This document shows, in pieces, positions 1-44,901 of a stretch of 44,901 bases of DNA; the stretch's first letter is position 1; each line of letters starts with the position of its first letter. A model generated the notes under the pieces. The model made no database searches. It saw only the letters and a program-made list of their open reading frames with translations, and had not been told where the DNA came from. The translations under genes were made by a program, and so were the position numbers. Source of the stretch: a virus. The stretch is taken from IMG/VR virus record IMGVR_UViG_3300010883_027301, positions 1-44,901 of that record, one strand, 5' to 3'.

Positions 1-1845
1 TTAGCTCTATTACTAGCTAACCTGATTATAGCTCTTCACGCTACTATGGCATTTCTACCAGCTGCTGCAGCCTTTGGATTAATGCTTGTACTACAGCCAT
101 TCGGTGGCGGTGGAATAAAATTAATAAAAGCTGGATTTAAAGTTCTTGGCGAATTAGCTTTTGCTATGATAAATGGTATGGCTCCTGCACTTCAATTGAT
201 TGGAAACTTAGACGTCGGAGATCCTAAAGCATTAGTCCTTAAGATTGGAGCTATTATTTCAGTGCTGATGGCAACTCAAGCTTTTGGTGGTATGGCTGTA
301 GCAATCGCAGCTTTAGATGTAATAGCTAGTAAAAATGGTGGAGAATCAGGCTCAATTTTAGAAGGCGCAGCAAATTTTATGAATGCAATGTTGGGAGGTA
401 TTACTTCCATGGTTCAAGCTTTAACTGTACTAGTAGCTATCATAAGCCCAGCAGACATACCAAAACTGGAAGCTATAGGAGGGTTAATAGGCGCTATAGC
501 AAATCTAATGTTAGCTTTAAAGCCTCCAGATGCTCTAATCGAAGCCCTAAAACCAGAAATATCCATGTCGTGGAGAGGCGTAACTACTAAAGCTCCAGAT
601 GTTTCAGGTACGCTAGCAGCATTTGGTAAAACTGTTATTGATATGATGAAGACTATGACAGAACTTTTACCTCCTTTCTTTACTGCTATTATGACAGTTG
701 ATTTAGGCGATGATCCTGAAAAAGCAAAAATAAAAATGGAAGCTATTGCAACTATTATAACAGCTATTGGTGGTTTTGCTGGAGACATCGGCGCAATAGC
801 AGCAAAAATAATGTGTATGAACTATGATCAGCAGAGCTGGATAATGAGTAGTCCAAAGATGGCAGACACACTCAAAGATTTCAAAAAGCAAATGCACACA
901 ATCTTAACTGCAGTTAAAGACCATCTCCCCAGCATGCTAGAGATGGTAATAGAATCTTCTAAGAAAATAGATGGCTCAGAGAAATCTATAAAGAAAATGA
1001 AAGTTATCTCAATGGCAATCACTGCTGTCGGTCAGTTTGCTTCAGGAATAGGGGCTATGGCAGATCTAATTCCGGAAGATAATAGTTGGAATCCCTTTGC
1101 AGATAAACCAGATATGCTTGGAAATATGATTTCTATGATTGAAGGAATTGTTGGAACTATAAAAGATACTTTACCAGGGCTAGTAACTGCATTACTAGCG
1201 GTAAAAGTTGGTTCTGGGGCTGAAAAGAAGTTAGAAATTATTGGGCTTGTTATTTCACAAATGAGCAATTTTACTAAAACTATTGGAGCCATTGCCGCAA
1301 GCTTTGGTGATGTTGCTGAATATTCAGAATTTAGAAGTAAGCTTGTATTGACAATGGGAATGATATCATATTTAATAGATCCAACTTACTATGGAGGAAC
1401 CCTCGAAGAGGGCCAAGCCGGGCTTAAGCAAGTTGTTGATTCTATGAGCTCACTTCCTGATCTTACTAGTACTGCTGCGCAGATGGAAAAAATGGCAAGT
1501 TTCATGAGCGATTTGTCACTCTTCAGCACAAAGCTTACTGCAATAGCCTCAGGATTTGTTTCTCATACTCAAGAGTCTGTAGCTCAAAGTGTGGGAACTG
1601 CAGTCGACGCCTATAACCAGACTGGAATAGAATTAGCTAGACTTAGAGTTTTTGATATTAACGCCGTGATGGAAGATGTTGGAGCTGCTCTTTCAGTTCA
1701 CAGGCAGAAAGTTACAGTTGAAGATAACGGTATTACAATTCAAATGAACCTTAATGTTACTATGGAAGCTGACCAATTGGCAGAAGTGTTAGTAGATAAG
1801 AAACTTGTAGTTGCTGGAACAGCCTTGGAAGGCCAAGGTGATTAA
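1..1845 (+). CDS. Tape-measure-like virion protein, C-terminal part (5' end outside window)
   Basis: The reading frame is open from base 1, so the start lies upstream and only about 614 residues are seen; the first internal ATG is at 46. The protein is rich in Ala, Ile, Met and Gly with many hydrophobic helices. It contains at least four degenerate copies of a unit ending in an IGxIAA-type hydrophobic stretch, anchored by K-[LM]-[EK]-x-I at bases 463, 733, 994 and 1228. Long, helical, repeat-bearing, hydrophobic proteins next to LysM and baseplate genes are typically tape measure proteins, which set tail length and may be injected. The C-terminus (from about base 1690) is a short beta-rich tail. 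The assignment rests on composition and context rather than on a signature motif. A membrane-active virion protein is the main alternative. Confidence 0.5.
   Translation, partial: LALLLANLIIALHATMAFLPAAAAFGLMLVLQPFGGGGIKLIKAGFKVLGELAFAMINGMAPALQLIGNLDVGDPKALVLKIGAIISVLMATQAFGGMAVAIAALDVIASKNGGESGSILEGAANFMNAMLGGITSMVQALTVLVAIISPADIPKLEAIGGLIGAIANLMLALKPPDALIEALKPEISMSWRGVTTKAPDVSGTLAAFGKTVIDMMKTMTELLPPFFTAIMTVDLGDDPEKAKIKMEAIATIITAIGGFAGDIGAIAAKIMCMNYDQQSWIMSSPKMADTLKDFKKQMHTILTAVKDHLPSMLEMVIESSKKIDGSEKSIKKMKVISMAITAVGQFASGIGAMADLIPEDNSWNPFADKPDMLGNMISMIEGIVGTIKDTLPGLVTALLAVKVGSGAEKKLEIIGLVISQMSNFTKTIGAIAASFGDVAEYSEFRSKLVLTMGMISYLIDPTYYGGTLEEGQAGLKQVVDSMSSLPDLTSTAAQMEKMASFMSDLSLFSTKLTAIASGFVSHTQESVAQSVGTAVDAYNQTGIELARLRVFDINAVMEDVGAALSVHRQKVTVEDNGITIQMNLNVTMEADQLAEVLVDKKLVVAGTALEGQGD
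460..1320 (+). repeat. Degenerate protein-level repeats (about 78-90 residues) in the tape-measure-like gene
   Basis: Four in-frame anchor motifs K-[LM]-[EK]-x-I recur at bases 463, 733, 994 and 1228, a spacing of 90, 87 and 78 codons. Each is followed by a hydrophobic helix. In the last three copies this helix reads roughly IxxIGxFAxxIGAIAA, and it is preceded by an LP-containing helix. The repeats are visible in the protein but are not conserved at DNA level, so they are old. Confidence 0.55.
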
Positions 1846-8917: not shown

Positions 8918-10117
8918 ATGAATCTATTAATAGAAGCTAGTAATTTTGGAAAGTCGAATCATCTTAGCTATGATGGTCAAAATTATTTTTGGACTAATGC
9001 TGTGGATGAAAATTCTATAGTTTTGTGCGGAGATCCCAAAAAAGAATATTCAATAGAACACTTTTGTCGCCTTTTAGAAATCCAATGTCCATCAATAATA
9101 AGCGAAAATCAAAAAAAGGCATTTTTGGAACTTGGGGTAGAAATTAATGGAGTTCCCTCTATAATGATTCAACGGCCAGAAGATTTTAAAGAAAATCTGA
9201 AAAAAGTTACAGAATGGGCTTCTGAAGTATACGATATTTTAGATGAGTATTCCTATTTAAAGACCTTTAAGAAAGAGCAGAAGTTACTGCGCGGTATGAG
9301 CGAGGCCGTTTTTGACTCTATCTCTTTTAACCGCTGGCTTTTAGACAATAAAATTGATAAAAAAGTTAAAAAGTCATTTTCAACTAACAGACACGGTTAT
9401 CTCGAAAGAGTAGTGTATAATAATTATTCTACTAGAACAGGCAGAATTGTAACAGAGTCTGGACCTCAACTTTTAACAACTCAAAAAGAAATTAGAGGAT
9501 TTTTAAAGTCAAGATATAAGGGTGGAAAAATAATTCAGTTCGACTTTATTTCTTTAGAGCCGAGAGTAGCTCTTTCTAGCGCGGGAAATAATTCGCAAAA
9601 AGATATTTATGAAATGTTTAATGAAAATTATTTTTCTAATTCTTTAGAGAGATCTCAAATTAAAAAACTTGTGTTATGTGCTCTGTATGGAGCTGGTGTT
9701 AGGACTTTAAAGAAAATATTGCCACCAGGTATAAAGCCTTTTGAAGCTGTAAATCATATCAAGAATTCTATGAATTTTAATGATATAGTAAGTGTTAAAA
9801 AACAAGAATTAGAAAAAAAATCTTTTATATCTAATATTTTTGGCAGAAGCATAATTCCATCTTCTGATAGAGACTCTATTATATTTAATAATTGGGTGCA
9901 ATCTTCAGCAGTAGATGTTTCTTTAATAGGGTTTCAAAATTTAATAGAAGAGTTAAGGTCAGAAAATTTAAATTTTGAACCAATATTTTTGATTCATGAT
10001 GCTTTAATAATAGACGCGAGTCCAGACATGATAAAAAAGATAGAAAAAGAATCACAAATATCGATTTTTATTAAAGAATTAGGCCACTTCCCTCTTTCAG
10101 TGGAATACCTGAGTTAA
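8918..10117 (+). CDS. Compact family A DNA polymerase-like protein (palm/fingers only)
   Basis: The polymerase motifs of the Pol I family are present in order. TGRIV with SGPQLLTT is the template-binding region. Motif A is QFDFISLEPRVAL at about residue 205-217, keeping D, E and R of DYSQIELR. Motif B is RSQIKKLVLCALYG at about 244-258, with Arg and Lys in place, Leu at the position equivalent to E. coli Phe762 and Cys at the next position. Motif C is IHDALI near 358, with the catalytic Asp but Ala in place of Glu. At 399 residues the gene lacks a 3'-5' exonuclease domain and much of the fingers and thumb. The ATG at 8918 is preferred over a TTG at 8900 that lies inside a hairpin. Replicative, translesion or gap-filling roles are possible, and another polymerase is encoded at 25722. 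Confidence 0.75.
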   Translation: MNLLIEASNFGKSNHLSYDGQNYFWTNAVDENSIVLCGDPKKEYSIEHFCRLLEIQCPSIISENQKKAFLELGVEINGVPSIMIQRPEDFKENLKKVTEWASEVYDILDEYSYLKTFKKEQKLLRGMSEAVFDSISFNRWLLDNKIDKKVKKSFSTNRHGYLERVVYNNYSTRTGRIVTESGPQLLTTQKEIRGFLKSRYKGGKIIQFDFISLEPRVALSSAGNNSQKDIYEMFNENYFSNSLERSQIKKLVLCALYGAGVRTLKKILPPGIKPFEAVNHIKNSMNFNDIVSVKKQELEKKSFISNIFGRSIIPSSDRDSIIFNNWVQSSAVDVSLIGFQNLIEELRSENLNFEPIFLIHDALIIDASPDMIKKIEKESQISIFIKELGHFPLSVEYLS

Positions 10118-10145
10118 GATTGATATTTATTCTAAAGGTGCATCG

Positions 10146-10913
10146 ATGAAAGAAATACAGATTCGCAATTATATTCGAAAGATTATAAAAGAGCAAAATG
10201 AAGAAGAGCCACAAACCACGCAAAAGCGTGGTAAGGGTAGATATAAAAAAGAGATCGAAGCTGTGGGAAAAGTTCCTCCAGGCGAACTAATGCAAAGACT
10301 CAATGCAAAAAAAGGAGCTGGAGATTCTGATATTAAAAAACTCATAAGTTTTTTAGATTCAGCTACTGGCGGAGTTGAAGCCATGAAAATAGTTTATGAT
10401 TCTCCAAAAGAAAAGAAAGATTCTCATGATAGACTTGGCGCTGAAATACCACTTAGCAGTATAAAAGGAGCGGCTGGCACCATTCCAGCTAGAGACGGAC
10501 GAAGGTATATACAATACACAATGGAAGCTGGTAAGAAAGCTGGTTTTATTGATATTCCTCCATTTGTAATAGAAATTTTTGGAAAAGGAGTTTTAATATA
10601 TTTTTCTGACACGCCTTATATGTGGAATAGAGCTAAAAATAATGCTAAAAAGAAGAAAGTTGCGAATGAGTCCGTTGTAGATGAAGAACTACTTGGAGAA
10701 CCTGATGAATCTAGCCAAGATGAAAGAGAAGACGCAGAAAAAGATGAATACAGCGTTTCTGCAAATGTTGCTGGCGTAGTAACTCCATTGGGCACAGGGC
10801 CAACTGGAGGAAAAGGAAAAAAAGATAAAGAGGGTGATCCACGTAAAAGAGCAATCGATGCTAATGAGAGAGCATTTGGCGGTGGAAAGGTCTATTCTCC
10901 CAAGAAGAAATAA
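10146..10913 (+). CDS. Probable virion protein with [I/L]KEQ leader, unknown function
   Basis: The N-terminus reads MKEIQIRNYIRKIIKEQ, nearly the same as the leader of the small protein at 25372. The I-K-E site at residues 14-16 fits the consensus (I/L)-x-E cut by T4-type prohead proteases. The rest is a Lys/Glu-rich body with a compact central segment (about residues 60-170) and a charged, Gly/Lys-rich C-terminus. The basic composition would suit a DNA-associated internal protein. An AAAGG ribosome site lies 10 bases upstream. No known family was recognised, and the packaging idea is inference from the leader. Confidence 0.55.
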   Translation: MKEIQIRNYIRKIIKEQNEEEPQTTQKRGKGRYKKEIEAVGKVPPGELMQRLNAKKGAGDSDIKKLISFLDSATGGVEAMKIVYDSPKEKKDSHDRLGAEIPLSSIKGAAGTIPARDGRRYIQYTMEAGKKAGFIDIPPFVIEIFGKGVLIYFSDTPYMWNRAKNNAKKKKVANESVVDEELLGEPDESSQDEREDAEKDEYSVSANVAGVVTPLGTGPTGGKGKKDKEGDPRKRAIDANERAFGGGKVYSPKKK

Positions 10914-10951
10914 CTTAAAGCTCAGTCTTATATCTATTAATATAGGTCTTA

Positions 10952-11404
10952 GTGAGCAATATGAAAAAAAGCGAGTCTGTATTTTTGTCTGGAGATTTAG
11001 TAGCAGTTTTTGGTGCTGAGTCTGGAAAAGAGGGACAAAAAGCAGAAAAAGTTTCTATTTGTAAGATTATTTCTGTTGGGGATAAAGATCTTATTGTAGA
11101 AGAGGTAGACTCTCCTTCATATTCTTCTAGACAGCCCTATTTTATAGTACCACAAGATATTTGTCATAAACTCAGTATAGATCCAGAGATTGTAATTTCT
11201 TCAACATTTTTAACTCCAAAGATTGGAGATCTTGTTCTTTCTTATGTAAAAGAAGCTTTCAAAAATGAAGATCCAGTTGAAATAACTGGAATATTATATA
11301 ATGTTACTTACAAGTTAGGCAGACCAATTACTGCAACGTTGCTTATGGGTACCGAAATGAAAGAAGTTCCATTTTCAAGTTTGATGGTTTTGCAAAGAAA
11401 TTAG
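10952..11404 (+). CDS. Conserved-looking phage protein, unknown function
   Basis: This 150-residue protein is mostly beta-rich. It opens with a FLSGDLVAVFG stretch and has a second similar stretch near residue 89 (PKIGDLVLSYV), suggesting one or two small SH3-like barrels. The start is uncertain. GTG at 10952 has an ATAGG-like site about 7 bases upstream; ATG at 10961 has a weaker one. It lies directly before the gp32-type gene, separated by a structured 88-base leader. No function is evident. Confidence 0.5.
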   Translation: MSNMKKSESVFLSGDLVAVFGAESGKEGQKAEKVSICKIISVGDKDLIVEEVDSPSYSSRQPYFIVPQDICHKLSIDPEIVISSTFLTPKIGDLVLSYVKEAFKNEDPVEITGILYNVTYKLGRPITATLLMGTEMKEVPFSSLMVLQRN

Positions 11405-11492
11405 TTGTACACTTGGTAGTCTCCTTATAGATTTATTATGTGGTTATCTACCACACTATAAACTAAAAATTTGCACATTTAAGGAGTTAACA
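11405..11492 (+). promoter_or_regulatory. Structured leader of the ssDNA-binding protein gene
   Basis: TGTGG (11439-11443) can pair with CCACA (11451-11455). Alternatively TGGTAG (11414-11419) can pair with CTACCA (11448-11453). The two helices share bases and exclude each other. A TATTAT box (11434-11439) is a possible -10 element but has no good -35. AAGGAG precedes the ATG at 11493. T4 gene 32 is autoregulated through a structured leader, so a similar control is plausible here but not shown. Confidence 0.4.
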
Positions 11493-12332
11493 ATGGCAAT
11501 TGACCTAGACGCAATTCGTAAGAAGCTAAACCAGCTTTCTGGTAATAATTCAAAGCGCAACAGTATGTGGCGCCCGCAAGAAGGGGAAGACCACACGGTT
11601 CGAATTCTTGCTTTTTCTGATAATGATGGACAGCCTTTTAAGGAGCGCTGGTTCTATTATAATATTGGAAACAATCCCGGGCTTTTAGCTCCTCACCAGT
11701 TTGGTGAGCCAGATCCGATTCAAGATTTGATCAACACTCTTCGAAATGATGGCACTAAAGAGTCTTATGAGTTGGCTAAAAAGCTTTATCCTAAGATGCG
11801 AGCTTACGCGCCAGTTATTGTTCGAGGTGAAGAAGCTCAAGGAGTTAGGCTTTGGTCTTTTGGAAAAATGGTATACCAGTCTCTTCTCAACTTGATGCTA
11901 GATGATGAAGTGGGCGATATTACAGATCCAACTACTGGTCGTGATATTAAAGTCACTTGTACGAAGCCTCCAGGCAGAATGTGGGCTACCACTGAAGTCC
12001 GGCCGCGCATGAGTACTACAGATCTTGCTGATAACGCAAAGCAAGCTAAACAATGGCTAGATGATATTCCAGATTTAGATGAAATGTATACTTGCAAGAG
12101 TTATGACGAACTTGAAACTATTGTCAATGCTTGGTTGAATGGAGACGATACTGATGATTCTAATTCTGATAATTTTGGCTCTACTAGAGGCGGAACGACT
12201 CAAAATAGTTCCACCAGTGATACATCAACTAGCACTGACAAGTCCACTAATGCAGCTGCAGATAATACTAAAATGGCAGAAAAATATGCAAGTTTAGATG
12301 ATGCATTTGCTGATATTGAAAAAGATTTCTAA
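11493..12332 (+). CDS. gp32-type single-stranded DNA-binding protein
   Basis: The protein follows the layout of T4-type gp32. A basic N-terminal segment (LDAIRKKLNQLSG) would serve cooperative binding. The OB-fold core opens with a HTVRILAF strand and FKERWFYYNIG, as in cyanophage and T4 relatives. A Ser/Thr/Asp-rich linker from about residue 220 is followed by an acidic tail ending DDAFADIEKDF, the partner-binding tail typical of phage SSBs. At 279 residues it is close to the T4 protein. The usual Cys/His zinc site of T4 gp32 is not evident. It has its own leader and a strong downstream terminator, consistent with separate, high-level expression. It coats ssDNA during replication and recombination with the UvsX, nuclease and helicase genes that follow. 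Confidence 0.85.
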   Translation: MAIDLDAIRKKLNQLSGNNSKRNSMWRPQEGEDHTVRILAFSDNDGQPFKERWFYYNIGNNPGLLAPHQFGEPDPIQDLINTLRNDGTKESYELAKKLYPKMRAYAPVIVRGEEAQGVRLWSFGKMVYQSLLNLMLDDEVGDITDPTTGRDIKVTCTKPPGRMWATTEVRPRMSTTDLADNAKQAKQWLDDIPDLDEMYTCKSYDELETIVNAWLNGDDTDDSNSDNFGSTRGGTTQNSSTSDTSTSTDKSTNAAADNTKMAEKYASLDDAFADIEKDF

Positions 12333-18482: not shown

Positions 18483-18869
18483 ATGGCATATTCACAAAAA
18501 ACAATAGATCATTTTGAAAATCCGCAGAATGTGGGTAGCATGGATCGAAACGATCCTGGTGTAGGCACCGGTATGGTAGGCGCTCCTGCATGCGGCGATG
18601 TAATGAAACTCCAGCTTAAAATTAATGACAGCGGAATTATAGAAGATGCCAAATTTAAAACATTCGGTTGTGGGTCTGCAATTGCATCTAGTTCTTTAAT
18701 TACTAGTATGGTGAAAGGCCAATCTATTGAACAAGCTTTAGAAATATCTAATGCAGACATCGCGAAAGAACTTTCTCTTCCACCAGTAAAAATTCATTGC
18801 TCTGTTTTAGCTGAAGATGCAATTAAAGCTGCAATTAGAGATTATAGGAAAAAACATGACGAAAAATGA
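18483..18869 (+). CDS. iscU: IscU Fe-S cluster scaffold protein
   Basis: The protein is the same length as bacterial IscU and very close to it throughout. GAPACGDVMKLQ carries C37 and D39, KTFGCGSAIASSS carries C63, and LPPVKIHC carries the LPPVK motif (99-103), H105 and C106. All cluster ligands and the chaperone-recognition motif are intact, so it should be a working scaffold. In bacteria IscU receives sulfur from IscS and passes clusters on with HscA/HscB. No iscS, hscA or fdx is in the window, so the phage protein would have to use host partners. A GAAAGG site precedes the ATG. It overlaps the nfu gene by 14 bases. Confidence 0.95.
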   Translation: MAYSQKTIDHFENPQNVGSMDRNDPGVGTGMVGAPACGDVMKLQLKINDSGIIEDAKFKTFGCGSAIASSSLITSMVKGQSIEQALEISNADIAKELSLPPVKIHCSVLAEDAIKAAIRDYRKKHDEK

Positions 18870-19128
18870 TATACAGCAATTTATAGATAAAGAAATTAAT
18901 CCTCTCATAGCTTCTCATGGAGGTTATATATCAATACATAATTTCAATGAAGAAAGCAAGGAATTAAAGATTACTATGGGTGGCGGATGCCAAGGCTGCG
19001 CATCGTCAAAAATGACATTGAGACTAGGAGTAGAAAATCATCTTAGAGAAGAATTTCCAAGTATAGGAGATATTGAAGATGTTACTGATCATTTATCTGG
19101 TGAAAATCCATACTATGAAAAGGAGTAA
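18856..19128 (+). CDS. Nfu-type Fe-S carrier (NifU C-terminal domain)
   Basis: The frame is open back to an ATG at 18817, but that lies inside iscU. The ATG at 18856 has TAGGA about 6 bases upstream and gives a protein starting at the normal Nfu domain boundary. INPLIASHGG, GGGCQGCASSKMTLRLGVE and EFPSIGDIEDVTDH are the hallmarks of the NifU C-terminal domain, including the CxxC that binds a 4Fe-4S cluster. The end (GENPYY) resembles the end of E. coli NfuA. It lacks the N-terminal A-type domain that NfuA carries. It would carry clusters from IscU to targets. Confidence 0.92.
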   Translation: MTKNDIQQFIDKEINPLIASHGGYISIHNFNEESKELKITMGGGCQGCASSKMTLRLGVENHLREEFPSIGDIEDVTDHLSGENPYYEKE

Positions 19129-19131
19129 ATA

Positions 19132-19458
19132 ATGCCGATAACAGTCACTGATAAAGCAAAAACTAAAATTTATTCTTTGCTTAAAAAACGCCAAACTCTT
19201 GAACACTACTTAAAAATATCTCTCCAGGGAGGGGGATGTTCTGGGTTTATGTATCATTATGATTTTGTTTTAGAGCCGGAAGAAAAAGATAAAGTTTTTG
19301 AATTTGGAGATGTTAAAATTTGTATAGACAAGAAATCATATCTATTTCTCAATGGTGTAGAAATAGATTATGAAGAAGACCTTTTTAAATCTGGTCTAGT
19401 ATTTAAATCGCCTAACGCAAAAAGAACTTGCGGATGCGGCGAATCAGTAGCTTTTTAG
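19132..19458 (+). CDS. A-type Fe-S carrier (IscA/ErpA/HesB family)
   Basis: ITVTDKAKTKIYSLL opens the HesB fold, GGGCSGFMYHY holds the first conserved cysteine and TCGCGESVAF the last two, the standard three-cysteine set. GLVFKSPNAKRTCGCG matches the family C-terminus. At 108 residues it is full length. It lies 3 bases after the nfu gene and directly before the ClpP-like gene, so it belongs to the same transcription unit. A-type carriers deliver clusters to apo-proteins or hold iron; IscA and ErpA cannot be told apart here. Confidence 0.93.
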   Translation: MPITVTDKAKTKIYSLLKKRQTLEHYLKISLQGGGCSGFMYHYDFVLEPEEKDKVFEFGDVKICIDKKSYLFLNGVEIDYEEDLFKSGLVFKSPNAKRTCGCGESVAF

Positions 19459-41021: not shown

Positions 41022-43007
41022 ATGTCACAAATGACCATGAGAGAAAGATTAGATCTCTTCGCGAAGTGCGGAGCTTTCGGAGATTTAGAAGATTTAATGC
41101 TTCAAGAGTCTAATCTTTCTTTTTTATTAGTAGAACAATTAGAAAATGAAGATGTTCAAAAACTTAGAGCTTCTATTGCTGCTACTATTGGAGTTTTAGA
41201 TGATGTTAAAGGAAAGATTGGAACGTCTTTTCCTTCTTTAGGGACTTACTTAGATAAAAACAAGCTCGCGCTTTCGAAAGCTGAAGAACTAGCTTCTAAA
41301 ATAGATCTTTCAGACCCCAAAGGGTTAAAAGGTTTTCTCGGAAGCATGTTTGGTGATAAAGTAGATATAGGCAGAGCTCTTCAGGGAGTTTTAGAAATAG
41401 AATCTAAAGCTAATCAATCTCTAAATACTTTTAAATCAGCTATACCACTAATAGCAAGAAACCTAAAGGGTAAACTTGAAAGAGAGACAAAATTATCTCA
41501 AATCCCAGCTGATGTAGGAATTACTTCTGACCAACTCCGAGGCGGCGTAACTAAAGCATTTGGCTCCGCTGGTAAAAAAGGTATGTTTGCAAAAATGGCA
41601 GGCTTTTTTAAAGGCAAAGCCGCAAAAATACCTGGTGCAGAAGATCCAGGAGAATTTCCTTCCGATTCTTTTGCTGATGAACTACTAGAGTTAACTTATG
41701 GAGATTTAGAAGATTTAGTTTCTGCTGTTGAAGCAGTAAACCTTCCAGAGCCAGCTCAAGACGCAATAGAAGATGTAAATGCCGCTGCCCAAGAAGCTGA
41801 AGGATCTGATGATCCTTTGGCTGGAACTCCTGCTGAAGCTGATACTGGAGAAGAGTCCAAAGATGAAAAAACTAAAGAAGCAGAAACAGTCAGCACTACT
41901 AAAAATAATTTAGTTAAGAAAGCAACTGATGTAGCAGGAAAACCTGGCGGTTTAATTATTTCTAAGTTGATTGATATGGGCACTTTAAAAGATGCCGGTC
42001 TTGAAATAGCTGAAGAGTCATTTTATAGAAAAGAGCTAACTAATTTGCTTTTTGAACAAATCAAAATTTCTCACGAAAAATATCAAGCAGCTGTAGATGC
42101 TGTTGCAGAAGAAGATGAAACGGCATTCGAAGACGTTGATTTAGACGATGTTAGAGAAAAATTAGGATCACTTGATGACCCAGCGCTAGATATAGAAGCT
42201 AAAAAGATTAATCCGAAAGATTTATCTGATAAAGCTTATAGACAAAGTAGTCTTGTCGTAACGATGGATGGAAAAAAAATAGCGGATGGTCGACCTTCGC
42301 AAATTGCAGACATGCTTTCAATGGAGTTAACTAAGGATGAAGATCTTCAGCAAGATTTTGCTGAAGATGCAGAAGTTGAAGTTGTTGGAGGAGGGGGTTT
42401 AAAAATTCCATTTACAGAAATGGAAGACTTAGTTGCTAGAATAAACAAAAATTTAGAAGCGGGAAAATACGGAGAAACAAGCTTTAAATTAGGCGCTAGT
42501 AATGATAGCGCAGATTCAGATGCAGATGACGTTGGTGCTGCTCTAGAAAAAGCAGTAGCTGATGTTTCTGGTGAAGCTGAAGCTCCAGCAGTAGCTATTG
42601 GACATGCTTTAGATGGCTGGCATTCTAGTCTCTCGCAATCTGCTCAAAGCGTACTAAAAGCTAAAGGGCGATTTGATGGTCTTAAAACTTCAGTAGATAC
42701 TTCTTTATCTAATGCAGCAAGTGCTATTGCTGGAGAGGTACAAAAGGCAGTTGATTCATGGTGGAAAGAGCATGAAGAAACTTTAGTTAAAAGCAAAAAG
42801 TTTAGTAAAACCAATGGCCAAACTTTAAGAGCAGAGATTCCAAAAATAGCCGCAGCAATGCTCCAACAAAAATCAGAAAATAAGTTTCCAATAACAAAAT
42901 CTACCATCCGCCGTGTAACTAATAAATACTTGGATAAAAAATACTTTTCAAATAATTTAATCCAAGAATCATCTCGGTGGAAAACTCTTGCAGGGATTGA
43001 AAAATGA
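41022..43007 (+). CDS. Large acidic virion/prohead-core-like protein with repeated LxEQ sites
   Basis: 661 residues, Ala/Asp/Glu/Lys-rich and mostly helical, with no membrane segment. Candidate (I/L)-x-E sites include LQE at 27-29, LVEQ at 36-39, LLFEQ near residue 342 and LIQES near 648. A Ser/Glu/Asp-rich linker lies near residues 255-290 and a Gly/Lys-rich basic patch near 190-210. The Trp-bearing KWKT-type C-terminus follows the last site. Composition and repeated sites are like scaffold or internal proteins that are cut during head maturation. It leads a four-gene virion cluster. No known family was recognised. Confidence 0.55.
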   Translation: MSQMTMRERLDLFAKCGAFGDLEDLMLQESNLSFLLVEQLENEDVQKLRASIAATIGVLDDVKGKIGTSFPSLGTYLDKNKLALSKAEELASKIDLSDPKGLKGFLGSMFGDKVDIGRALQGVLEIESKANQSLNTFKSAIPLIARNLKGKLERETKLSQIPADVGITSDQLRGGVTKAFGSAGKKGMFAKMAGFFKGKAAKIPGAEDPGEFPSDSFADELLELTYGDLEDLVSAVEAVNLPEPAQDAIEDVNAAAQEAEGSDDPLAGTPAEADTGEESKDEKTKEAETVSTTKNNLVKKATDVAGKPGGLIISKLIDMGTLKDAGLEIAEESFYRKELTNLLFEQIKISHEKYQAAVDAVAEEDETAFEDVDLDDVREKLGSLDDPALDIEAKKINPKDLSDKAYRQSSLVVTMDGKKIADGRPSQIADMLSMELTKDEDLQQDFAEDAEVEVVGGGGLKIPFTEMEDLVARINKNLEAGKYGETSFKLGASNDSADSDADDVGAALEKAVADVSGEAEAPAVAIGHALDGWHSSLSQSAQSVLKAKGRFDGLKTSVDTSLSNAASAIAGEVQKAVDSWWKEHEETLVKSKKFSKTNGQTLRAEIPKIAAAMLQQKSENKFPITKSTIRRVTNKYLDKKYFSNNLIQESSRWKTLAGIEK

Positions 43008-43375
43008 AAATTGAAAAGATTGCTAATAAATTATTTTATGAAAGATACAAGAACAGACTTCTAGAAGCTATTTCTGAAGTAGATGTAATGGATGGTCGTG
43101 GAAACATTATAATATCTAAAGATTTAAAAGTTAGGCACATGGATTCTGGATTTGAGTATACAGTAGATGATGTGATAGATGATAATGGAAATATTAGCGT
43201 AGTGCTTAGAGATCCAGCAGTGCCCAGGATAGAAGATCCTCCTGGGGATGAAACTCTGCTTGGGGCTCCACCATCTTCTGATTTTCTTCACGAAGATGAT
43301 GACGAACAAGTTGAAGAAGAGACAATATTCGTAATAGATCAAAGCGAATTTGAAAAGGAATATGAGATAAAATGA
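43004..43375 (+). CDS. Acidic small virion-module protein, unknown function
   Basis: 123 residues. The N-terminus KLFYERYKNRLLEAISE is an amphipathic helix with an L-L-E site like its neighbours. The middle is a small beta-rich unit and the C-terminus a strongly acidic tail (HEDDDEQVEEE). It overlaps the upstream gene by 4 bases and the downstream gene by 4 bases (ATGA), so the three are translationally coupled. No family was recognised. Confidence 0.55.
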   Translation: MKIEKIANKLFYERYKNRLLEAISEVDVMDGRGNIIISKDLKVRHMDSGFEYTVDDVIDDNGNISVVLRDPAVPRIEDPPGDETLLGAPPSSDFLHEDDDEQVEEETIFVIDQSEFEKEYEIK

Positions 43376-44058
43376 AAGATTTAGAAAAAAATTTACAAGT
43401 TCAAATACGTTCAGATCTTGGACTAGAAGACAAAAAACTTTCCGAAGCTTATGTTACACAAGCTAAGAAATTTAATTTATCTACTGAGCTTTTAAGTTCC
43501 AAAACTAAAAAAGTTCAACAGGAAATGCTTAATGGATATGTTGAGACACTCAATCATGTTGCAGCTTCTTTAGACACTGCCGATAGAGACCAAGCAAATT
43601 CTGATTCTTCAAAGTTTAGATCTTTAAAAATAGATGAATCTTATAATTTAAATGGCGCTTTTCTTTTTGGAATGCATTTCGAAAATATTTCAGACCCTCA
43701 ATCTCAAGTTGCAATGGATTCTTTAGTTTTTATGAGACTAGAAAGAGACTTTGGAACCTTTGACGCATGGCAAAAAGACTTTATTGCTTGCGCTCTTTCT
43801 TCTCGGTCTGGCTGGGTAGTCACTGTATATAATGGATTTTTAAACAGATATATAAATTGCACTGTGGATTCGAATGATATTAGTCTTCAGATTAATGCAT
43901 ATCCAGTTTTAGTATTGAGTATGCATCCTGAGTCTTATGTTAGAGATTATCTAGAAGACAAAAAAGCTTACGTTTATGCTATGATGCAAGAGTTTAACTG
44001 GGGAGTAATAGAAGACAGATTTAAGAAATCTGATAAGATTAGTAGGATACTTCGATGA
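43372..44058 (+). CDS. Degenerate Fe/Mn superoxide dismutase-fold protein in virion operon
   Basis: The layout follows Fe/Mn-SOD: LNGYVETLN (53-61), MHFENIS (101-107), RDFGTFDAWQKDF (125-137), SGWVV (146-150), PVLVLSMHPESYVRDY (178-193) and FNWGVIEDRF (208-217). The last two match the conserved DVWEHAYYLDY and NW-x-x-x-x-R segments. The metal ligands are lost by eye. The DVWEH motif reads SMHPE (Asp to Ser, His to Glu), the N-terminal HH pair is ML and the middle His is replaced. The fold is therefore retained without the active site, pointing to a structural or binding role. It lies between acidic virion genes, overlapping both by 4 bases. Confidence 0.65.
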   Translation: MKDLEKNLQVQIRSDLGLEDKKLSEAYVTQAKKFNLSTELLSSKTKKVQQEMLNGYVETLNHVAASLDTADRDQANSDSSKFRSLKIDESYNLNGAFLFGMHFENISDPQSQVAMDSLVFMRLERDFGTFDAWQKDFIACALSSRSGWVVTVYNGFLNRYINCTVDSNDISLQINAYPVLVLSMHPESYVRDYLEDKKAYVYAMMQEFNWGVIEDRFKKSDKISRILR

Positions 44059-44720
44059 AAAGAGACGATTACAAAAAATATTTTAGAAAATATTACTCTA
44101 ATACGCTTATTCAAGAGCAAGACGAATTATTCGGAGATGAAGATTCAGCTGATGATGAAGCGGCTGACGAAGAAGGCGATACTGAAACTGAAGAAGAAGC
44201 TCCAGAAGAAGAAGCTTCAGAAGAAGATCCAGAAGAAGAAAAGGTTGAAATAGAAGCTGGAGATGAAGTACGACTTGGCAAACCTTTTGAGGCTCAGATA
44301 GACTCTATACTCGGTGATTTTGAAATAGATGCTCTTAAAAGCGCTCAAATAAATACTGAAAATGAAGTTGCAGTAGAGTCTAAATGGTGGAAGAAATCTC
44401 TTTCTAGCGTTTTATTAGAACAAGAAGAAATAACTACTGAAGCAGATATAGATATCGACATATTTGCTTCAGACGTAGCTAGATTTATTGGCAACTATGA
44501 TACTCTTCTTGATATGGAGTCTATAATATACAATAAAGCTAAAGAGCTTTTAAGCACTAAATACGGAGACGAAGTAGCTCTTGCATTTGAAGAAATATTA
44601 AAGAGCCGCCACAGTATTGATTTGTCACCAGCAGTAGATGGAAAAGCAGTTTCTAGCACTGAAGATATTCAAGTGCCGCTAGCCGTAGGATCTTCAGGTG
44701 CTGCAGCTGATGCTTCATGA
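44055..44720 (+). CDS. Acidic virion-core/scaffold-like protein with LxEQ sites
   Basis: 221 residues. The N-terminus KKYFRKYYSNTLIQEQ carries an I-Q-E site at 19-21, and a second L-L-E-Q lies at 120-123 after a KWWKKSL stretch. Between them is a highly acidic low-complexity region (about residues 24-66). The C-terminal 90 residues are helical (EADIDIDIFASDVARFIGNY). Site spacing suggests release of the acidic segment by a prohead protease, as for T4 core proteins. This is inference. ATGA overlap with the SOD-like gene. Confidence 0.55.
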   Translation: MKRDDYKKYFRKYYSNTLIQEQDELFGDEDSADDEAADEEGDTETEEEAPEEEASEEDPEEEKVEIEAGDEVRLGKPFEAQIDSILGDFEIDALKSAQINTENEVAVESKWWKKSLSSVLLEQEEITTEADIDIDIFASDVARFIGNYDTLLDMESIIYNKAKELLSTKYGDEVALAFEEILKSRHSIDLSPAVDGKAVSSTEDIQVPLAVGSSGAAADAS

Positions 44721-44901
44721 CGAGCCGCTTTCAAACTAGGAAATCTGTTCACGTTAACCTTAGTACAGGAGTACACGCAGAATTCAGGATGGAGCTTTTT
44801 AAGAGAGGTTTATCCATGCAGGAAGTGTTTGAACATTTAGCTTGTTCGATAACTAGCGGAGATTCTTATTTAACTAATCTTTTAGACGTTCTTGAATATA
44901 A
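44717..44901 (+). CDS. Partial gene: probable ribbon-helix-helix-type protein (3' end outside window)
   Basis: ATG 44717 overlaps the upstream stop by 4 bases, and the frame stays open to the last base (61 codons seen). The N-terminal KSVHVNLSTGVHAEFRMELF followed by GLSMQEVFEHLA has the strand-helix-helix pattern of ribbon-helix-helix DNA-binding proteins. Such small proteins act as transcriptional repressors or partner proteins in large phages. The truncated C-terminus limits certainty. Confidence 0.6.
   Translation, partial: MTSRFQTRKSVHVNLSTGVHAEFRMELFKRGLSMQEVFEHLACSITSGDSYLTNLLDVLEY

Follow-up and report, generated by a model that had tools for sequence, protein, structure and literature searches.

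The protein encoded at 43372..44058 of the window probably belongs to the internal proteins of a T4-type jumbo phage head, and it would be one that arose from a virion-borne iron superoxide dismutase (Fe-SOD) and now has a non-catalytic role. The window, that is, the whole stretch of DNA analysed, is a 44.9-kb fragment of a phage genome. The open reading frame codes for 228 residues on the plus strand and shares a 4-base ATGA overlap with the gene on either side. Both neighbours encode acidic proteins (pI 4.26 and 4.05), and in these respects the arrangement is as described in a first-pass annotation made from the sequence alone.

Relatives of the protein were collected in three scans of viral contigs. 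The window protein used as the query returned 26 loci, an alignment returned 135 relatives that were reduced to 80, and an alignment centred differently also left 80. Pooling of the three scans gave 105 distinct sequences; L142, which had a misplaced reading frame, was dropped and 104 were compared. The full H-H-D-H metal site is present in 83 of the 104, and the LHELYF and WEH-x-Y segments are retained in most members. The hosts of the SOD family are taken to be jumbo phages because the contigs reach 369 kb and many are longer than 200 kb. No cellular relative was detected when 84,980 genomes of bacteria and archaea were scanned by pattern, a scan that excludes close relatives only, and the comparison of the SOD protein and its direct neighbours with PHROGs was uninformative. 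Judged by the capsid protein, the nearest cultured phages are Microcystis phage Mel-JY01 and Flavobacterium phage immuto, neither of which was among the SOD matches. The literature searched, subscription papers and preprints being outside the search, contained no description of a head-targeted phage SOD or of this family.

Fold and metal site of the window protein

Sequence comparison and structure prediction both indicate that the window protein is a homologue of the Fe/Mn-SODs, at a level far above chance. The protein matched the Pfam family PF02777 (Sod_Fe_C) with an E-value of 1.2e-13, and a phmmer search of solved structures aligned residues 53-224 with 1coj at 2e-19. The AlphaFold2 model, obtained with a 24-sequence alignment as input, had a pLDDT of 86.5. 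It consists of a helix at residues 2-15 and an irregular stretch to residue 42, followed by the helix and strand order of a SOD; the confidence was lowest at residues 11-30. When the model was compared with the PDB using Foldseek, 1coj ranked first (E 9.8e-12, TM-score 0.85 on the target) and the top matches were SODs throughout. A viral structure library yielded only two other clear matches, both SODs of uncultured phages. Homology of sequence and fold extends over the whole domain, as in members of the Fe/Mn-SOD fold family. The first-pass annotation had proposed this fold and had named structure prediction and Foldseek as the way to check it; the proposal is borne out by the profile match, by phmmer and by the model, with 1coj on top.

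Active Fe/Mn-SODs hold the metal with three His and one Asp and have an outer-sphere Gln or His. None of these is present in the window protein. In the family alignment the four ligand columns, H/H/D/H in complete members, read Q49, F99, S183 and E187, and the outer-sphere position is N168 in place of His. We take the latter column, by motif, to be the place of His145 in the M. tuberculosis Fe-SOD. The earlier reading of DVWEH as SMHPE was correct, and the N-terminal and middle histidines that it found missing correspond to Q49 and F99. The C-terminal helix motif had been given as NW-x4-R and is actually NW-x5-R (W210 and R216, both invariant across 24 sequences). Identical letters occur at the ligand columns of L002 (the same as L003) and L004, which lie on other contigs at 80-90% identity, so that the loss is not a sequencing error. 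An alternative alignment that would bring the ligands back was ruled out: close H/H/D/H relatives align without gaps at those columns, and the ligand-free state described on first pass survives realignment. The window copy is very probably a pseudoenzyme.

The possibility was considered that a new metal site has formed in the protein, which would then still be an active or altered redox enzyme. Two histidines common to the window, L002 and L004, H101 and H185, are indeed two residues from the old ligand columns. However, H101 replaces an aromatic residue and is also found in members with other losses (L016, L049 and L058), H185 replaces the Trp of DxWEH, and the ligand columns themselves hold Q, F, S and E with the outer-sphere His lost as well, making this possibility very improbable.

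Table 1. Features of the SOD-like gene and its operon neighbours in the window (arrow, predicted cut or its counterpart)
Feature	Position	Strand	Basis
661-aa acidic protein upstream, same operon, variable family F19/C30, N-terminal LQE↓S and LVE↓Q	41022..43007	+	pI 4.74
123-aa acidic protein directly upstream, family F9/C7, N-terminal LLE↓A	43004..43375	+	pI 4.26
SOD-like open reading frame, 228 aa	43372..44058	+	ORF listing of the window
ATGA overlap, start of SOD-like gene	43372-43375		
Predicted propeptide/capsid-targeting sequence, residues 1-25, MKDLEKNLQVQIRSDLGLEDKKLSE	43372..43446	+	Glu25 conservation and model secondary structure suggest this function
Predicted prohead-protease site LSE↓A, cut after Glu25 between 43446 and 43447	43438..43449	+	T4 gp21 rule L/I-X-E
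SOD-fold domain, residues 26-228, predicted mature protein of 203 aa	43447..44055	+	PF02777, 1coj by sequence, AlphaFold/Foldseek
Q49 at ligand His 1 column	43516..43518	+	His in 85/104 relatives
F99 at ligand His 2 column	43666..43668	+	His in ligand-complete relatives (FLHxxYF)
N168 at outer-sphere His column	43873..43875	+	His in 79/83 ligand-complete and 1/21 other members
S183 at ligand Asp column	43918..43920	+	Family alignment
E187 at ligand His 3 column	43930..43932	+	Family alignment
ATGA overlap, end of SOD-like gene	44055-44058		
221-aa acidic protein directly downstream, family F1/C2, N-terminal IQE↓Q	44055..44720	+	pI 4.05
Start of ~93-aa conserved ORF, family F10/C8, running off the window	44717..44899	+	ORF listing, family comparison

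The N-terminal extension and head targeting

In every member of the family the SOD domain is preceded by an N-terminal extension that is closed by a glutamate, Glu25 in the window protein. This residue is invariant in 104 of 104 relatives and is the sole invariant residue among window positions 1-60. Two positions before it (P3), L was found in 76 sequences, I in 16, V in 10 and K in 2, that is, L, I or V in 102, and the residue after it (P1') was A in 71, S in 31 and N in 2, that is, A or S in 102. The extension varies from 9 to 94 residues, although some of the long ones may stem from a wrongly assigned start. By contrast, the sequence behind the glutamate is nearly constant at 202-210 residues in all members and begins where the SOD fold begins. 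When the model of L005, the nearest ligand-complete relative, was compared with 1coj by VIA-align, the alignment ran from residue 36, the one next to Glu35, as far as the C-terminus, with a Z of 26.2 and an rmsd of 1.4 over 201 residues.

In T4, the prohead protease gp21 cleaves after L/I-X-E, and the N-terminal propeptides that it takes off are 7-65 residues long (PMC9026906); the propeptides of the internal proteins are capsid-targeting sequences (PMC9026906; PMC7411985). The window protein likewise has a short candidate propeptide that ends in such a motif, LSE↓A. The motif alone is not proof, because it is short and because N-terminal LxE columns are also well conserved in some further families of these loci, in one case within a P-loop motif; in the metabolic families found there (deaminase, epimerase, thymidine kinase, DHH phosphoesterase and polymerase), no LxE column exceeded 56%. 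The case for a cleavage site rests on the invariance of the glutamate, the A or S that follows it and the constant downstream length. Taken from the alignment, the extension with its invariant Glu is evidence that the SOD protein may be targeted to the head.

The N-terminal ~25 residues would then serve for capsid targeting and direct the protein to the core of the prohead. A gp21-type prohead protease would cut after Glu25, freeing the 203-residue SOD-fold domain in the maturing head, and the domain would stay with the DNA in the head and may be ejected into the host. Head packaging of the SOD family is considered likely. A late SOD that protects the infected cell without being packaged, with an extension that serves some other purpose, would be in keeping with the full catalytic site of the ligand-complete majority and with the existence of phage SOD genes in non-structural neighbourhoods (PA5oct; MW462191). 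However, such an auxiliary function would leave the invariant Glu within [LIV]xE↓[AS] and the constant downstream length unexplained, as well as the retention of the protein in the ligand-free clades, and is regarded as improbable.

The genes required for processing of the T4 type were sought in 14 related contigs. Peptidase_S77 was detected in 9 of the 14 and gp23 in 9 of the 14; a gp21-type protease together with a gp23-type capsid protein was found in nine, including G001 and G002, the searched contigs of the window clade, each of which has both genes. The capsid proteins of related contigs carry LRE↓A near residue 60 (LRE↓Q in L099, LKE↓A in L102). The SOD operon is tens of kb away from the capsid genes, which speaks against the head assignment. 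A SOD with an apparent head-packaging tag is present in many of the large phages known from metagenomes, and the virus's own protease would be the cutter of this tag.

Two further observations were made near the capsid genes. G001 and G002, close relatives of the window, have two tandem gp23-type genes (L096:8270-10168 and 10262-12151; L097:8111-10021 and 10083-11966) whose products have nearly identical N-termini, while the other contigs have a single gene. At L100:9946-11887 the capsid gene is followed by a run of small ORFs, most of which start with near-identical basic helices (MKITKRQLRxIIKE...) closed by an LxE-like site, as though a single tag had been duplicated in front of many proteins.

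Among cultured phages, the Pseudomonas jumbo phage PA5oct resembles this arrangement in having a SOD domain with an LxE-type N-terminal site and in encoding an S77 protease and a gp23-type capsid protein. The protein in question, EST35_0261 (MK797984.1 172979-173527; L034:7818-8366), is annotated as hypothetical; it is SOD-like with full ligand motifs and its N-terminus holds IAE↓A, the capsid protein having LVE↓N at the matching place. The record marks EST35_0261 as seen by ESI-MS/MS, a mark that is only suggestive because it is also attached to non-structural proteins. The PA5oct SOD is a distant one (~25% identity) and differs from the window protein in its complete ligands and in having genes for ClpX, ClpS and FtsH as neighbours.

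The gene order of the SOD operon is conserved across loci. The family of the directly downstream protein is present in 83 of 87 loci, and 97% of its members have an N-terminal [LIVMF]xE column. The directly upstream family was found in 76 of 87 loci, with an LLE↓A site that is only partly conserved, and an LxE column occurs in 92% of the 12 distinct members of the 661-residue protein's family. The locus looks like a late region because an Rz-like spanin gene (L022:12061-12495; phrog_739, 8.8e-5) follows the SOD gene at a distance of a few genes on the downstream side. The spanin gene adjoins a small membrane-protein-like ORF, likely a lysis cassette inside the same late operon. The same operon encodes, in 78 of 87 loci, a pterin-4a-carbinolamine-dehydratase-like protein (family C5; L003:15692-16072 and L022:14907-15305, Pfam matches of 2.3e-11 and 8.2e-14), often with an N-terminal [LIV]xE↓[ASG] site. 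The HHP motif of this protein is intact in 4 of 70 members and degraded in the majority, and the protein is possibly a second packaged enzyme fold that is losing its active site. Elsewhere in the window, three consecutive ORFs at 18483-19458 resemble, by eye, Fe-S cluster assembly proteins (IscU/NifU-like and IscA-like).

Loss of the metal ligands within the family

The members that depart from HHDH fall into several groups. QFSE is found in three sequences (the window, L002 and L004), RRDG, LREG, RQDG or QRDG in eight, N[ST][SC][RS] in seven and MSNR in one; two members have the partial sets HNDN and HHDT. The outer-sphere His tracks the ligands, being present in 79 of the 83 complete members and in 1 of the 21 others. 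The replacements differ between the ligand-free clades, and L023 and L180 have long branches.

The first tree was calculated from 78 sequences with the ligand columns and the extension excluded. Supported branches forced three departures from the complete site, two of which are full losses, and the window clade was placed beside the ligand-complete L005 (96/89). The tree of 104 sequences needed five changes, three of them forced, and placed the window clade within a group of 18 ligand-free rows and L005 (93/90). The exact number of losses is uncertain because it depends on the placement of L005; four or five are favoured because a regain of four ligands is unlikely. On these trees it is safe to state that the full ligand set was lost at least twice. 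The ancestral state was most likely a head-packaged, potentially active Fe-SOD from which the ligands were lost secondarily and repeatedly, since 83 of the 104 members keep the complete ligands and the outer-sphere His. The first-pass proposal of a SOD fold repurposed in a virion operon is thus retained as regards the ligand-free fold and the conserved late operon; a single repurposing does not fit a family that is mostly ligand-complete.

The dN/dS ratio within the window clade was ~0.04-0.05 and thus did not exceed that of neighbouring genes (0.04-0.13), values that are only rough because dS is near saturation. By this estimate the window lineage is under strong purifying selection. Sequencing error or a decaying pseudogene was ruled out by this ratio together with the letters shared by L002 and L004. 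A second, active SOD that might serve as a replacement was found in none of the 16 contigs searched, some of which are fragments; each has one SOD, indicating a pseudoenzyme without an active backup where this could be checked.

Role of the SOD-fold protein and comparison with known systems

In the HHDH majority the domain is probably a virion-borne superoxide dismutase, as all of the Fe/Mn-SOD ligands are kept. In the window clade, where the metal site is gone and the rest of the protein is held by selection, the role would be non-catalytic, most likely that of a packaged core or head component, a role that the SOD version may already have held beside its chemistry. The ligand-free form could be structural or host-directed; the structural role is favoured, and a function in head structure or maturation is plausible.

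An ejected effector is the host-directed alternative: the ligand-free SOD fold, packaged and cut, would bind a host target after ejection, like Alt and IPI of T4. The targeting-type N-terminus suits ejected as well as structural proteins, and those internal proteins of T4 that carry such sequences are delivered into the host (PMC9026906, PMC7411985). The different replacements in the ligand-free clades and the long branches of L023 and L180 would be expected if the targets differ. However, the window clade is under strong purifying selection, whereas the T4 IP proteins change fast and are poorly conserved among T4 relatives (PMC9026906), and an effector is considered rather unlikely.

Whether structural or ejected, the SOD protein resembles the T4 proteins IPI, IPII, IPIII and Alt (PMC9026906, PMC7411985) in its short N-terminal extension, the L/I-x-E cut rule and the folded cargo behind it, in a phage type with a gp21-type protease and a gp23-type capsid protein. 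It differs in that the cargo is a SOD fold rather than an IP or an ADP-ribosyltransferase, that the site is known from sequence, and that the family is conserved across a large group of jumbo phages. The nearest solved SOD, the Aquifex pyrophilus Fe-SOD 1coj, has its whole fold in common with the window protein; in contrast to SODs of this type, the window clade lacks the four ligands and the outer-sphere His, and the family adds an N-terminal tag with a protease-type site. SOD-family proteins are also part of a large assembly in the plastid RNA polymerase (PAP4/FSD3 and PAP9/FSD2, sequence matches in the PDB), which is eukaryotic. The yeast mitoribosomal proteins mS42 and mS43 have a SOD-like fold that is kept for structure. 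Their structural role (PMC9892005) is in a ribosome and not in a virion. The virion of chlorovirus PBCV-1 packages a Cu/Zn-SOD (PMC7019647), likewise a superoxide dismutase in a virus particle, but one of unrelated fold and metal, active as an enzyme and belonging to a eukaryotic virus.

What the virus requires seems to be the protein as such and not its chemistry alone, because in this phage and in several other lineages the metal site was destroyed and the rest of the protein was kept. There is about an even chance that a group of jumbo phages packages an Fe/Mn-type SOD, maybe delivered with the DNA, and that a second, non-catalytic function predates the several losses of the site. If this is true, phage particles would deliver an antioxidant enzyme, tying infection to the oxidative stress of the host. 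The [LIV]xE↓[AS] motif ahead of a domain could flag other packaged enzymes of jumbo phages, for example the pterin-dehydratase-like protein of the operon. Furthermore, related phages that package this protein in forms that have the metal site and forms that lack it would offer a natural experiment in which the chemical and the structural role may be separated.
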